Positions 40,231 to 46,254 of a DNA stretch of 64,000 bases are shown one piece after another. The notes under the pieces are model-generated. The model saw nothing but the letters and a program-made list of their open reading frames with translations. It ran no database searches and had not been told where the DNA came from. The stretch is from an uncultured Litoreibacter sp. (lineage in GTDB: Bacteria; Pseudomonadota; Alphaproteobacteria; Rhodobacterales; Rhodobacteraceae): contig CANLVO010000001.1 in NCBI GenBank assembly GCA_947494645.1, forward strand, positions 372,001-436,000, given 5' to 3'. The position numbers and the translations under genes are program-made. The first letter of the stretch is position 1; each line of letters opens with the position of its first letter.

Positions 40231-43200
40231 CTATCCCAGCTCAGCCAGCCGGGCGAGGGCTGCGGTCAGTTTCGCCTCTTCCTCTTCGCGGGCCGCAAGG
40301 TTTTCCTGCGCCTCGGCCACCACCTCATCGGGCGCGGAGGCCACGAATTTCGGGTTGTTCAGCCGCCCGCGCAGCCCGCCGAGCTCTTTGGCGAGCTTGC
40401 CAAGGCTTTTCTCCAACCGCGCTTTTTCCGCGCTGACATCGACGATACCGTCCAAGGGCAACGCGAAGCTGCCGCCCGCCACGGGGATCGAGACGGACCC
40501 TTTTGGGGCGTCGCCTTGCGTAATCTCGCCCAGCCGCGCCAGTTTTCTGATCAGGGCCGCATTGTTGGCAAAAGCGGTTTCGCCTGCCGCGTCCAGATCG
40601 ACCTGCACCAGCGGCACCTCTAGCGAGGCGGGCACATTCATCTCGCCCCGCGCGGAGCGGACGGATTCGATCAGCGTAATCACCCAGTTCATTTCCCGGT
40701 CGGCGCCTGCGTCGACCAGCTCAGCGCCGTAGGTTGGCCAGTCGGTGACGGCTAGCATTTCCGCGCGTTTGGCGGTCTCGCCCCACAGCTCCTCTGTGAT
40801 GAACGGCATCATCGGGTGCAGCAGGATCATGCACTGGTCCAGCACCCAGCCCATGGTCGCGCGGGTCTCGGATTTTTGAGCCTCTGTGCCATCGTAGAAC
40901 AGCGGCTTGGACAGCTCGACATACCAGTCGCAGACCTTGCCCCAGACGAATTTATAAAGCGCGTCGGCAGCATCGTTGAAGCGGTAAGCCTCAAGATTGG
41001 CGTCAACGGTTTCGCGGACCTTGGCGGTCTCGCCGATGATCCACTTGTTGACGGTCTGCTGAGGGGAGGGCAGCGGGAAAGTTTCCGCGCCCTCGAACAC
41101 CTCGTTCATCTCGGCAAAACGGACCGCGTTCCACAGCTTGGTGCCGAAATTGCGATACCCCGCGATGCGCTGCGTATCCAGCTTCAACACCCCGCCCAAC
41201 GCCGCCATGGCAGCAGAAGAGAAGCGCAGCGCGTCAGCGCCGTATTCGTCAATGATATCAAGCGGGTCGACCACGTTGCCGGTGGATTTCGACATCTTCT
41301 TGCCCTTGGCGTCGCGCACGAGGCCATGCAGATAGACGGTATCGAAGGGGACCTGATCGACCACGGCCAACTGCATCATCATCATGCGGGCGACCCAGAA
41401 GAACAGAATGTCCTGCCCGGTGATCAACGTCGAGGTGGGGAAGTACTTTTTGTACTCTTCCGTTTCCTCGGGCCAGCCGAGCGTGCCGATGGGCCAGAGG
41501 CCGGAGGAGAACCATGTGTCGAGGACGTCGGGGTCTCTGAAAACCGGAACCGAGTTAGGATCAATCTCTTGGCCTTTTCCGAGGCCGGCAATGACAGTCT
41601 GGACAGATTTCGACGGGAACAGTTGGTCAAACTCTGCTCGGGGCATATGCTCCGCATCGAGCGGAACGATAGGACGGTCGTAGATCGCAGCTAGTTGCGC
41701 AACAGCATCTTTTTCATTCGAAGCGCAGACCATGATTGGCTTCGAGGCGTCGTAATACCTGTTGCCGTCCTGTCTATCCTCAAAACTTGGTCCATACCAA
41801 ACCGGAATCTGATGCCCCCACCACAGCTGCCTTGAAATACACCAAGGCTCGATGTTCTCCAGCCAGTGGAAATACACCTTCCGGTCGCCCTCCGGCATGA
41901 TCCGGGTGCGGCCATCATTGACGGCGTCCAGCGCGGGCTGGACGATCTGGGCCGTGTCGACGAACCATTGGTCGGTCAGCATGGGCTCGATCACCACTTT
42001 GGAGCGATCACCAAACGGCTGCATGATGGGCTTGCTCTCGATGTAAGGCTCAAGGCGGCTGCTTTCCTGGCCGTCCTCTTCGTCAATGACGGGGACGGAG
42101 TGCATAACGGCCAAGCCTTCGTCGGTAATGTCCTGGACAACCTTCTTGCGCGCTTCGAACCGGTCGAGGCCACGGTAGGCCTCCGGCACAAGGTTCATCG
42201 CCGCGATCATCGCTTCGTCAAAGGACTGCTCACCATTTGCGATGGCCTGCGCGGTGGCGGCCTCCTCCGCATAGGGTTTGCCATCGGCGCGCATCGCGCC
42301 TTTGGTGTCCATCAGCGAATACATCGGGATGCCGCCGCGCTTGGCGACTTCGTAGTCGTTGAAGTCATGCGCGCCGGTGATCTTCACCGCACCCGAGCCG
42401 AAAGTCATGTCGGGGTACTCGTCCGTGATGATCGGGATCAGGCGGCGATGCTCTTTGGGCCCGACCGGGATTTCGCAGAGTTTTCCAACAATTGGCGCAT
42501 ACCGTGCGTCATCTGGATGCACCGCAACCGCGCCGTCGCCGAGCATGGTTTCGGGCCGCGTCGTGGCGATGGAGATGTAGTCCCGCGTCTCGCGCAGCGT
42601 GACGTTCCCGTCCTCATCCTTCTCGACATATTCATAGGTTTCGCCGCCCGCCAACGGGTATTTGAAGTGCCACATATGGCCCGGCGTCTCGATATTCTCG
42701 ACCTCCAGATCGGAGATCGCCGTCTCGAAATGCGGGTCCCAGTTGACCAGCCGCTTGCCGCGGTAGATCAGGCCCTTGTTGTACATCTCGACAAAGACCT
42801 TGATGACGGCGTCGTGGAAATTGCCTTCGTTTCCGTCAGGCGCACCTGGCGCTCCGGACATGGTGAAGGCCTCGCGGGAATAGTCGCAGGACGCGCCGAG
42901 GCGCTTGAGCTGGTTGATGATCGTGCCGCCGCTCGACGCTTTCCAGTCCCAGACTTTCTCGAGAAATTTCTCCCGGCCCAACTCCGTGCGCTTGGGCTGC
43001 TGGGTCTCAGACAGCTGGCGCTCCACCACCATCTGGGTGGCGATGCCTGCGTGATCCGTGCCGGGCTGCCACAGCGTGTCATAGCCCTGCATCCGCTTCC
43101 AGCGGATCAGGATGTCTTGCAGCGTGTTGTTAAACGCGTGGCCGATATGCAGGACGCCGGTCACGTTGGGGGGCGGGATCATGATGCAGAAGGTCTCGGA

Positions 43201-43302
43201 CCGGGACGCATTTGCGCCAGCCTTGAAACAGCCTGCGGCCTCCCATGCGGCTGACAGCCGGGCCTCGGCTTCCTCCGCGTTGAACGTTTTTTCCATCGCC
43301 AT
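40231..43302 (-). CDS. valS: Valine-tRNA ligase
   Basis: Start at 43302 ([16 protein letters not shown]) with AAGGAAG upstream; 1023 residues. Class Ia signature HIGH at 52-55 ([14 protein letters not shown]), KMSKS in [10 protein letters not shown], an editing domain in the middle, and a C-terminal coiled coil ([23 protein letters not shown]). It charges tRNA-Val. The first 22 residues of the longer frame are not needed. Confidence 0.97.
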
Positions 43303-43432
43303 CTGCGTCTTCCTTGAAACTCTTGGGGCTCGTTTACCCAAACCCATCCCGAAGGGGAAGGTGGCCAAAGGCGGGAAGTTGCGTATTTGGGTTGAAACGA
43401 AGCCGTTAAGCGTCTTTGCTCGGGCGAGATAC

Positions 43433-44038
43433 TCAGTCGGGGTTGGTCACAAGCGGCTCGCGTGCGCCGGGGCGGATGACTGCGGGGTCGTATGGCGCGC
43501 GGGCAAAGACGTCGCGCACCATGTCGCGGAAAAAACCTATGCCCTCGTGGACGTAGTCCGGATCAAAGGAGCATTGATCCCAACGCTCACAAAACGTCGC
43601 ACAATCGTCAAAATAGAGATGGCCCTTAAAGGCATCACGCTTGTGCTGGTTTCCGCCCACATGATGGCCGTAGTAAAGCATCTGAAAATCGCCGTGTTTC
43701 TCGACCACCCATGTGCATTGCTCGCGCACGAAGGGCTTCAGGATCGAGGCCGCGTATTCGTCGTGGTTATACGGCGCGAAGATGTCGCCGATATCGTGCA
43801 GCAGGGCGGAGACGACCCAATCGACATCCGCCCCGTCGCGATGCGCGCGGGTGGCGGATTGCAGCGAATGGCCCAGCCGCGTCACCCGGTACCCCGACAG
43901 GCTTTCATCCAGAGTGACGAGGGCGTCCAGCAGCCTGTCTGCCGTGCCAGACGCATATTCCACCTCCAGCGGGTGCAGCAGATCGTAATCGGCCTTGTCG
44001 CCGTCCTTCATTGCCGTGAATTTCACCGTTTGCGTCAT
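43433..44038 (-). CDS. HD-domain protein, candidate diiron oxygenase (PhnZ-like)
   Basis: A 201-residue HD-superfamily protein. Candidate metal ligands in order are His57, His81-Asp82 (LLHDIGD), His92, His115 and Asp154, the pattern seen in mixed-valent diiron oxygenases such as PhnZ and inositol oxygenase. The stretch [17 protein letters not shown] matches the start of the PhnZ-type fold, but the position I align with the PhnZ lid glutamate is Tyr50, so the substrate may differ. Its ATG overlaps the stop of the dioxygenase gene, so the two proteins are made together. Catalytic role is inference. Confidence 0.75.
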
Positions 44039-44910
44039 GCGTAGATCCCTTTGTTTTTCGCAGCCCCTTCCATCATGACCTTGGCCTGCGCGGCGCGGAT
44101 TTCTTCATATAGCGCCAAGGCGTCGGGCTCGAAATTTGCCTTGGGGGCAGGGATAAGCCGCGCCCGCCCAGCCGTGTCAGACCCGCGTGCCAGCATCGCG
44201 TCGGTGCGGCCCTCAGAGGGCACCACATCAGGGCGCATATAACGGATCACGGCGGCGATCCGGCGGTCATCAGAAATATTGGGCCCCGACCCGTGGATGG
44301 TCAGCCCGTGATGCAGGCTCATCTGGCCCGGGTGAATTTCGATATTCACCTTGTCCTCATCCGCCACATCCACGGCCACCTCCTGCCCGCGCGACAAAAG
44401 GTTGTTGTCGTCGAACGTGTCCTCATGCGGCAGGATGGCCTGTGTGTGCGATCCGCGCACAAAATCCATGCAGCCAGAGGCAGGCGTGGCGGGTGACAGC
44501 GGCACCCATGCGGTGACCAGCCCGTCAATCGCGCCCAGCCCCCAATAGGTCAGGTCCTGATGCATCGACACGATCTGCGTCGTGCGTGGCTCCTTGATGA
44601 AAAACTCGGCGGCGAAGATCAGGATGTCCGGCCCCAGAATGCCCTCGACCGCGTCCAGCACGCCTTTATGGGTGGCAATCCGGTGCGCCAGCGGCATCAC
44701 GATATTGGCGTTGATCCGTTTGTAGGTGTTGAGCGGCAAAGGCAGGCCTGCGTCGAGCCAGTCGCGCTCAATGGCCTCCAGCTCTGCGCGCATCTCGGCG
44801 GCCTCGGCCGCCTCCATCACCGGCACCGGGAACAAGAACCCGTCCTTCCAATATTGCTTGGTCAGCGGGGCGGGCAGGTGGCCGTTTTCTAGGGTCAATG
44901 ATGCCAGCAC
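44035..44910 (-). CDS. Phytanoyl-CoA dioxygenase-family 2-oxoglutarate oxygenase (PhnY-like)
   Basis: A GTG start at 44910, preceded by AAGGAGG at good spacing, gives 291 residues; the longer frame has no such signal. Fe(II) ligands are His117 and Asp119 (SMHQDLTYWG) and His206 (LTIHGSGPN); a 2-oxoglutarate-binding Arg lies among residues 216-217 or 223. This is the PhyH family. Paired with the HD protein it mirrors PhnY-PhnZ, in which PhnY hydroxylates an aminophosphonate and PhnZ cleaves it. The substrate here is not known. Confidence 0.82.
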   Translation of the reverse strand: MLASLTLENGHLPAPLTKQYWKDGFLFPVPVMEAAEAAEMRAELEAIERDWLDAGLPLPLNTYKRINANIVMPLAHRIATHKGVLDAVEGILGPDILIFAAEFFIKEPRTTQIVSMHQDLTYWGLGAIDGLVTAWVPLSPATPASGCMDFVRGSHTQAILPHEDTFDDNNLLSRGQEVAVDVADEDKVNIEIHPGQMSLHHGLTIHGSGPNISDDRRIAAVIRYMRPDVVPSEGRTDAMLARGSDTAGRARLIPAPKANFEPDALALYEEIRAAQAKVMMEGAAKNKGIYA

Positions 44911-45060
44911 GGGATCGTTCCTCCTTGAGGTGAGCAAACAAAGAATGCGCGTTGCGGTCTTTCCAGAATGCGACACATATCCATGTCGCGAAAGGGCTTG
45001 GGCTTCATCTTGGCAAAAATACCTAAGTCCCGACAGTGGCAATCACGCAAGGACAACGCC

Positions 45061-46254
45061 TTAGTTGCCGGGCCCATCCAGCGTGACCGTTTGTTGCAGG
45101 TCGCGTGTCTTGGGACGCCTGACCCATGGCAGGCGACGAGACCATCCGTCGTGACGGGCCAGCACACTGTCATGCAGCGATTCAGACGGGTCGCGGCCGA
45201 CCTTGCGGGCGCGGCGCTGCAAGAACAGCTTGCCCCACCCGCGAAACGTGCCGACCGAAGGTGCGTTGACGTCAAGCGGGTATCTGGATCGCCAGTCTTC
45301 GGGCAGGGGCAGGCCGCATCGCTCAGCATTGGCCAGCATCCAGACCAGCGGAATATTGGCCAAAGGGCGTGCCGGCTCATACCCGGTCAGATGCCCGCCA
45401 ACATCGCCATGGCTGCCCGCAAACCAGACCTGCTTCAGCGTCCCGGTATAGCCGGGTTCATTGTCCCACAGGACCGGAGAAAACGCGTTGCGGGTCTCGT
45501 TCAGCGCGAGGGCCTGAAAGCCGTGACGGACCGTGTCGCCCAGATGATGGCTGTGAAACCCATGCTCAACCGGGGACAGGCGCCACAAGACAGGGGCGCG
45601 GAACCCCAGGGCGCGCACGGTGTCCCACACGCCCACCATTTCCACGGGCGCGTCGTCGTAGCAATGCACCGCGCTGAAGGATTTGGCGGCCAGACTGTCG
45701 GGGTCAACGCGGTAATGGCGAAAGGCCTGGCGCACGTTGCGTTCTGTCGCGTTGTCAGCTTTGAGCAAGCCAACCCGGTCGATCACACCCGCAAGCGAAC
45801 GCACCGCATACGCGCCGCGCGAATAGCCGAACAGAAATATCTTGTCGCCGGGGCGGTAGCGCGAGGCGATGAAGCCGTAGGCGCGGCGGATTTGACGGTT
45901 GATGCCCACCCCTGCCAGCACATCAATGGCGCGGCGAAAGCCCTGCCATTGGATCCCGGCCTCGTATTTCAGCGACACCGCCTTGTTCGGCCCCATCTCC
46001 GACAACAGGCGGAACGTTCGCCCGGCATTGGTCTCGAACCCTTCCTCCAGCGAGGACATGGTGCCATCAAGAATGATCACATGGGTGATGGGCTCACGCT
46101 TGCCCGCGCCAGAGGGGTGCAGCGTCTTGTCGCCCGGCCCGAAGCCCGCGAGATGTTTGAGGCTGTTGGACATGGACAACCCATGGCCGAGCAGTCTTTT
46201 CATCAGCTTAGGCAGGCGCACGGTCAAACTTCCCTTTGGCAACGCGTTACGCAT
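45061..46254 (-). CDS. DUF2235 alpha/beta-hydrolase-like protein
   Basis: A 397-residue protein of the DUF2235 (uncharacterised alpha/beta hydrolase, Tle1-like) group. The nucleophile elbow is FLFGYSRGAYAVRSLAGVI, the early conserved Asp is in HVIILDGTMSS, and GVWDTVRALG and WFAGSHGDVGGH provide the acid/His region. Members are lipases or phospholipases, some of them type VI effectors; no VgrG or immunity gene is seen here. Internal ATGs at 46203 and 46173 are possible starts. Confidence 0.82.
   Translation of the reverse strand: MRNALPKGSLTVRLPKLMKRLLGHGLSMSNSLKHLAGFGPGDKTLHPSGAGKREPITHVIILDGTMSSLEEGFETNAGRTFRLLSEMGPNKAVSLKYEAGIQWQGFRRAIDVLAGVGINRQIRRAYGFIASRYRPGDKIFLFGYSRGAYAVRSLAGVIDRVGLLKADNATERNVRQAFRHYRVDPDSLAAKSFSAVHCYDDAPVEMVGVWDTVRALGFRAPVLWRLSPVEHGFHSHHLGDTVRHGFQALALNETRNAFSPVLWDNEPGYTGTLKQVWFAGSHGDVGGHLTGYEPARPLANIPLVWMLANAERCGLPLPEDWRSRYPLDVNAPSVGTFRGWGKLFLQRRARKVGRDPSESLHDSVLARHDGWSRRLPWVRRPKTRDLQQTVTLDGPGN

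Follow-up and report, generated by a model that had tools for sequence, protein, structure and literature searches.

A PhyH-family hydroxylase gene coupled to the gene of a predicted HD-domain diiron oxygenase: a candidate two-step module for quaternary-ammonium carboxylates rather than phosphonates

Background

Which bond, and in what class of substrate, would be broken by the products of two overlapping genes in a 64,000-nucleotide stretch of DNA from an uncultured Litoreibacter sp. (the window, by which we mean that whole stretch)? The initial annotation took the products for a PhyH-family Fe(II)/2-oxoglutarate oxygenase and an HD oxygenase related to PhnZ and TmpB, and regarded them as a possible system for cleaving organophosphonates or a new C-X bond; the assignment of the two proteins to these families is upheld by profile, fold and alignment comparisons. 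Three HD-domain oxygenases, MIOX, PhnZ and TmpB, are named in an excerpt of a 2020 review (PMC8177086), and two of them act on phosphonates. NCBIfam also holds PhnZ1, which is likewise for a phosphonate.

Organization and conservation of the gene pair

Re-reading the sequence returned both ORFs with the coordinates (Table 1) and the four-base ATGA overlap originally claimed for them, along with every residue that had been singled out: H117, D119 and H206 in the PhyH protein, and H57, H81-D82, H92, H115, D154 and Tyr50 in the HD protein. Downstream of the pair lie valS and then the gene for a HisC-like aminotransferase, and upstream are those for a Tle1-like protein and a molybdopterin-binding dehydrogenase; the annotated window neighbors further include a Hint-domain protein and a CN-hydrolase, and none of them is a phosphonate transporter, just as the initial annotation had remarked. 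In the 120 loci grouped by neighbor clustering, the valS cluster occurs near HD in 19. The Tle1-like protein contains a phospholipase domain (PF09994; window 45061-46254, minus strand), and the cluster to which it belongs is found again close to HD and valS in 18 loci of relatives.

Table 1. Coordinates of the gene pair, its signals and the loci of the same genome referred to in the text
Feature	Position	Strand	Details
HD gene	43433-44038	minus	201 aa; ATG start; HD-domain oxygenase (predicted)
PhyH gene	44035-44910	minus	291 aa; GTG start; PhyH-family Fe(II)/2-oxoglutarate oxygenase
ATGA stop/start overlap coupling the PhyH and HD genes	44035-44038	minus	sequence
Ribosome-binding site AAGGAGG, 9 bases ahead of the PhyH GTG	44920-44926	minus	read by eye
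Valyl-tRNA synthetase (valS) ORF, downstream neighbor	40231-43368	minus	position marker, outside the system
TmpA/TmpB pair of the window genome (G000)	L195:6761-8469, contig C1 ~1738060-1739768		NCBIfam cut-offs passed
Carnitine locus of the window genome	L196:5545-10289		aldo/keto reductase, BKACE, lipocalin-like protein, carnitine dehydrogenase::thioesterase, SDR (partly named by eye)

The sequence supports the reading of the two genes as a single predicted transcription unit, encoding a PhyH-type 2-oxoglutarate hydroxylase and a putative HD-domain diiron oxygenase that is kin to PhnZ and TmpB. The family was surveyed in 198 genomes from 197 genera, 69 of which gave an HD match (counted as 68, the weak match of G076 being left out). 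Among the loci L001-L060, which include the window's own and were taken with flanks of 1.5 kb or less, a PhyH gene lies directly upstream on the same strand in 29 of 60, and hence the pairing is not chance. The other 31 comprise 29 without any of the labels tested and two that lie in carnitine operons. Among the 48 PhyH-HD pairs measured, counting the window's own, the overlap is precisely 4 bases in 30, a script having been used to set the HD starts. The initial annotation had made its proposal depend on a conserved neighborhood with the PhyH gene, and the pairing does recur in other genomes. The distances of the PhyH and HD proteins correlate across 33 pairs (Mantel r 0.88, a value reached by 0 of 5000 permutations), mostly because the pairs split into two subgroups, within which the correlation is weak (group A, 19 pairs, r 0.34, 3/5000; group B, 14 pairs, r 0.40, 61/5000). 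PhyH proteins of this type (E<=1e-60) occur in 43 of the 198 family genomes, a count that includes some at 242-314 bits which are perhaps other PhyH proteins.

The PhyH protein itself matches the Pfam PhyH profile with an E-value of 1.2e-26. Of its facial triad (HxD...H), H117 and H206 are present in 33/33 sequences and D119 in 32/33, the remaining one having Asn, and R216/R217 are invariant. The closest solved structure is not ectoine hydroxylase but ThoJ (6zyl/6zyk; Foldseek E 1.1e-26, TM 0.81), with which the window protein shares the fold at just 33% identity. ThoJ is a natural-product non-heme monooxygenase that hydroxylates a methylated, cationic histidine; a literature search on 6zyk/6zyl found no paper.

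The HD protein and its structural relatives

Pfam recognizes an HD domain in the second protein (E 2.3e-05) and a sub-threshold match to MIOX (E 8.4e-5, 22.7 bits against a cut-off of 25), and proteins of this kind are presumably in most cases annotated merely as HD or phosphohydrolase. None of the six predicted diiron ligands (H57, H81, D82, H92, H115 and D154) varies in any of the 92 aligned relatives, which reach down to 31% identity, and this six-ligand set is given as the HD-oxygenase motif in the excerpted review (PMC8177086). A profile of the 92 members run against PDB sequences placed PhnZ (4e-13) and TmpB (1e-10) on top, with MIOX at the edge (0.68), and the Phn-HD model is matched by all 92 members at E<=0.001. 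When the AlphaFold (AF2) model of the HD protein (mean pLDDT 96.3) was compared with the PDB using Foldseek, the hits at E<=0.001 were exclusively PhnZ and TmpB chains (10/10), with PhnZ best at 3.6e-7, TmpB (6npa) at 6e-6 to 1.5e-5, and chains of tRNA-processing enzymes appearing from 0.018. As the ligand set, the profile search and the fold search all favor PhnZ/TmpB, we place the protein among the oxygenases, and on the strength of sequence and model it is likely to be a diiron enzyme with oxygenase chemistry.

A housekeeping HD phosphohydrolase or nucleotidase that merely adjoins an unrelated PhyH gene would bear the same Pfam label, and some HD phosphatases also possess dinuclear sites according to the excerpted review (PMC8177086); however, the fold search reaches phosphohydrolases only at E>0.4, as against 1.5e-5 or better for PhnZ/TmpB, and the HD gene overlaps that of an oxygenase, so that we hold this explanation to be highly improbable. 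A plain phosphohydrolase is thus rejected on the result of the fold search. The initial annotation had named membership in a phosphohydrolase clade devoid of the diiron ligands as the outcome that would speak against it; we find the six ligands conserved and the fold far from phosphohydrolases.

The predicted oxygenase differs from PhnZ and TmpB around the substrate. The YxxE substrate loop, which the excerpt of PMC8177086 describes for both enzymes, is missing: in the profile alignment L47 and Y50 occupy the positions of Y24/E27 in PhnZ and Y30/E33 in TmpB, and the earlier observation by eye that Tyr50 stands in place of the lid glutamate of PhnZ thereby holds. This position is aromatic in 92/92 members (Tyr in 69, Phe in 23). 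The window protein further has the motif HDIGD (with D85) as opposed to HD[LI]GH in PhnZ/TmpB; the third residue after the HD aspartate is Asp in 90 of the 92 members, Lys in two (L184 and L185) and His in PhnZ/TmpB. L184 and L185 are also the most distant aligned members (31-32% identical), carrying Lys at the Asp85 position and lacking Trp110, and may represent a different kind of HD protein. A scan of a viral collection returned distant HD relatives on two viral contigs (L216:3001-3372, 28%, and L217:3001-3333, 27%).

Relation to phosphonate catabolism

The window HD protein fails the NCBIfam cut-offs of Phn-HD (TIGR03276, 31.2 against 214.6 bits), PhnZ1 (NF052439, 28.8 against 300) and TmpB (NF049941, 24 against 300), and the PhyH protein scores 11.5 bits with the methylphosphonate hydroxylase model NF052437, the cut-off of which is 500. 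The genome of the window contains a separate TmpA/TmpB pair that passes its cut-offs (TmpA 573.9 against 400, TmpB 351.2 against 300) and the C-P lyase gene phnJ. Across the family phnJ is not associated with HD, being found in 29 of 68 HD-positive and 59 of 130 HD-negative genomes (odds 0.9, p 0.76), and no phosphonate gene was recognized beside HD in the neighborhoods of relatives that were inspected, most neighbors there lacking annotation.

A third organophosphonate system, of the PhnY/PhnZ or TmpA/TmpB type and with altered specificity, would agree with PhnZ and TmpB being the nearest solved relatives of the HD protein, with the identical layout of hydroxylase plus HD gene, and with the fact that its three best NCBIfam matches, though weak, are all to phosphonate families. 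Against it stand the scores far below the curated cut-offs, the absence of the YxxE loop, HDIGD in place of HD[LI]GH, the existing TmpA/TmpB pair and phnJ, the lack of association with phnJ, and the absence of recognized phosphonate genes in the inspected, mostly unannotated neighborhoods; taken together we regard such a system as very unlikely. Organophosphonate cleavage is thus not supported, given the failed curated models, the genome's own phosphonate genes, the phnJ null result and the presence of relatives in carnitine operons described below, and of the two halves of the initial proposal the 'new C-X' one is the better.

Gene neighborhoods and distribution of relatives

Named genomes were scanned for further relatives, of which the best 80 of at least 562 were taken; the genes neighboring relatives were called by a codon-score method and labeled by tblastn with reference proteins as PhyH, carnitine (BKACE or CDH), BBOX/TmpA-like or Rieske. 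As the label search covered these four alone, 'other' denotes loci with none of them. The context counts exclude the 15 loci L141-L155, and L197-L215, which are from genomes already counted, are not added to the totals.

In all 24 carnitine-labeled loci of group A, the HD gene lies between the genes for BKACE and carnitine 3-dehydrogenase on the same strand, with gaps of up to ~1.1 kb, and the HD proteins encoded in these operons are 67-75% identical to that of the window. Twenty-two of the 24 are found among the 60 named loci L061-L120 (from the best 80 of at least 562) and two among the 60 loci L001-L060. Carriers include Mesorhizobium, which contributes 15 of the 24 (again among the best 80 of at least 562 named relatives), Hoeflea, Tabrizicola, Pseudotabrizicola and some MAG relatives. 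Neighbor clustering recovered the same order in most of these operons, and those scanned also hold an acyl-CoA dehydrogenase, a CoA ligase, a crotonobetainyl-CoA-hydratase-like protein and an AraC/DJ-1 regulator, with an alpha/beta hydrolase as well in L072; one scanned operon (L066) encodes a carnitine 3-dehydrogenase::thioesterase fusion (NF005716, 742.6 against a cut-off of 592). Around the Mesorhizobium carnitine loci, a search of the 8 kb flanks gave no PhyH homolog of the window type. In the Mesorhizobium loci L067, L079 and L095, HD occurs near an amidohydrolase gene (PF04909 in L095, the same cluster in the others), with a LysR gene in L067 and L095 and a Rieske ferredoxin in L095.

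The remaining close named loci in L061-L120 (from the same best 80 of at least 562) comprise 16 of 60 with PhyH, two with Rieske and 20 with none of the four labels, and the 20 intermediate loci L121-L140 comprise 15 other, two BBOX/TmpA-like, two PhyH and one Rieske. L156-L194 are 39 loci, of which 36 are at 31-51% identity to the window HD protein and three are closer (L157 55%, L192 70%, L193 58%); 35 of the 39 are other, two are BBOX/TmpA-like, one is BBOX/TmpA-like beside carnitine genes (L174) and one is PhyH (L193), and a search for a theme common to the neighborhoods of these distant members mostly found none. Altogether a BBOX/TmpA-like partner was detected by tblastn in five loci, that of L174 adjoining BKACE and carnitine dehydrogenase; the upstream partner in L126 scores 346.8 against the TmpA cut-off of 400 and 265.7 against the gamma-butyrobetaine dioxygenase cut-off of 414.75. 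A Rieske oxygenase adjoins HD in L116, L117 and L136, and the best match of the one in L116 is GbcA (glycine betaine monooxygenase), far under the cut-off (153.7 against 670). Neighbors of sarcosine-oxidase, GbdR-type and MttB-like kind were recognized by eye in L159/L162 and left out of the counts.

A tree of 140 rows (138 non-redundant of 179 members plus the window protein, with TmpB of the same genome as outgroup) recovered a set of 69 with an SH-aLRT of 99, which unites the window protein with 25 PhyH-paired, 11 carnitine-operon, 3 Rieske-neighbor and 28 unlabeled rows; no carnitine-operon row of group A lies outside this set. The 11 rows can be explained by 3 changes on the tree, compared with a mean of 10.7 after shuffling, and the 4 BBOX rows also require 3, hardly under the shuffled value of 4.0. 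The placement of L174 and other long branches, above all that of the outgroup, is unsure.

Carnitine dehydrogenase exceeds its cut-off in 63 of the 68 HD-positive family genomes as against 78 of the 130 HD-negative ones (odds 8.4, p 4e-7, a test that ignores shared ancestry). The control gene soxB is itself mildly associated with HD (52/68 against 76/130, odds 2.3, p 0.013, likewise ignoring shared ancestry), and therefore part of the co-occurrence with carnitine dehydrogenase reflects lineage or lifestyle. In the window genome's own carnitine locus (Table 1) the HD gene that relatives carry there was not found; a direct tie of the pair to this locus was sought without success, the pair adjoining valS instead.

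These neighborhoods could also be read differently, with HD as a diiron oxygenase for a substrate unrelated to quaternary amines and its place in carnitine operons as a local recruitment. In keeping with such a role, none of the four labels applies to 35 of the 39 loci L156-L194 or to many of those closer to the window protein, and the family reaches widely across the phylum, with matches at E<=0.001 in 72 of 398 genomes (a figure that takes in weak hits to other HD proteins). However, carnitine genes keep reappearing, as do BBOX/TmpA-like and Rieske partners; the carnitine and the BBOX/TmpA-like contexts each occupy about three places in the tree, and we consider local recruitment rather unlikely.

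Proposed function of the gene pair

Based on these observations we propose, at roughly even chances, that the pair constitutes an O2-dependent two-step catabolic module whose substrate is most likely a quaternary-ammonium carboxylate of the carnitine/betaine type and not a phosphonate; the substrate class is moderately supported. Iron loading and oxygenase activity, as well as substrate class and products, are inferred in what follows. The PhyH protein, with Fe(II) and 2-oxoglutarate, would hydroxylate one carbon of a small molecule, and the HD protein, with a mixed-valent diiron center of the MIOX/PhnZ/TmpB kind, would then break the bond that joins the carbinol carbon so formed to its neighbor, according to R-CH(OH)-X + O2 -> R-COO- + HO-X. 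In PhnZ, TmpB and MIOX, as described in the excerpt of PMC8177086 and in general knowledge, the carbinol is bound on one iron and O2 on the other, and abstraction of a hydrogen atom from the substrate is followed by scission of the C-X bond; in PhnZ/TmpB, which act on phosphonates, the carbinol carbon becomes a carboxylate.

In its most specific form, which we infer and place first, gamma-butyrobetaine would be converted to L-carnitine by PhyH and L-carnitine to glycine betaine and glycolate by HD; in the form placed next, beta-alanine betaine would yield its 2-hydroxy derivative and then glycine betaine and CO2. By CIP geometry L-carnitine appears to be a spatial isostere of (R)-OH-TMAEP, with CH2COO- replacing the phosphonate; TmpB converts (R)-OH-TMAEP to glycine betaine and phosphate, and the same chemistry on L-carnitine would therefore yield glycine betaine and glycolate. 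The hydroxyl would be supplied by PhyH in the window, and in the Mesorhizobium operons carnitine is already the central intermediate. The weak point of this proposal is redundancy: because a CDH/BKACE route to glycine betaine is present in the carnitine operons, HD is redundant there unless it serves another substrate.

One such role would be the clearance of a side product, for instance D-carnitine or acetonyl-trimethylammonium, into which dehydrocarnitine decays spontaneously, and not the cleavage of L-carnitine. This would account for HD accompanying the CDH/BKACE route but leaves the PhyH, BBOX-like and Rieske partners elsewhere unexplained, and we think it quite unlikely. In a broader and rather doubtful generalization of the two-step module, the pair would be the carboxylate counterpart of TmpA/TmpB, and its HD protein would belong to a new HDIGD-type subfamily of HD diiron oxygenases that use O2 to split L-carnitine or a hydroxylated betaine at a C-C bond into glycine betaine and glycolate (or CO2), with the PhyH, BBOX/TmpA-like and Rieske enzymes as interchangeable upstream partners. 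Marine Rhodobacterales and rhizobia would then possess an oxygenolytic branch of quaternary-amine catabolism that has so far gone undescribed.

Comparison with known systems

A literature search over titles and the beginnings of abstracts found neither a carnitine operon with an HD oxygenase nor an HD oxygenase acting on carnitine or betaine. If the proposal is true, a widespread further kind of HD oxygenase, tied to carnitine/betaine genes, would stand beside MIOX, PhnZ and TmpB; the chemistry of these enzymes would extend to abundant marine and plant quaternary amines, and ocean surveys would have to be wary of scoring a PhyH-HD pair as a sign of phosphonate degradation.

With the known carnitine catabolic operon (CDH, BKACE and a CdhR-type regulator) the link lies in the relatives of HD encoded inside it, between BKACE and CDH, whereas the window pair stands apart beside valS. 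MIOX is likewise an HD diiron oxygenase, one that cleaves a C-C bond, and the window protein has a sub-threshold Pfam match to it; however, the profile search gave an E-value of just 0.68, and at the position three after the HD aspartate MIOX has Lys, in contrast to the Asp of 90/92 family members. PhnY/PhnZ similarly combines an HD oxygenase with a hydroxylase, PhnY being of the PhyH type, and PhnZ is the best fold match of the window HD protein. Nevertheless, the structural alignment shows 24% identity, the YxxE loop is absent from the window protein, the profile alignment makes it about 11 residues shorter than PhnZ in the stretch from the HD pair to the ligand His that follows, and many of its close relatives adjoin carnitine genes. 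Unlike TmpA/TmpB, which lies elsewhere in the same genome, the window pair has a PhyH and not a TauD-like hydroxylase, and its HD protein scores 24 against 300 bits with the TmpB model, lacks YxxE and has HDIGD for HDIGH. What the two systems share is a 2-oxoglutarate hydroxylase predicted to act before an HD diiron oxygenase, with adjacent genes, the six-ligand set and a matching fold, and some members of the window HD family have a TmpA/BBOX-like partner.
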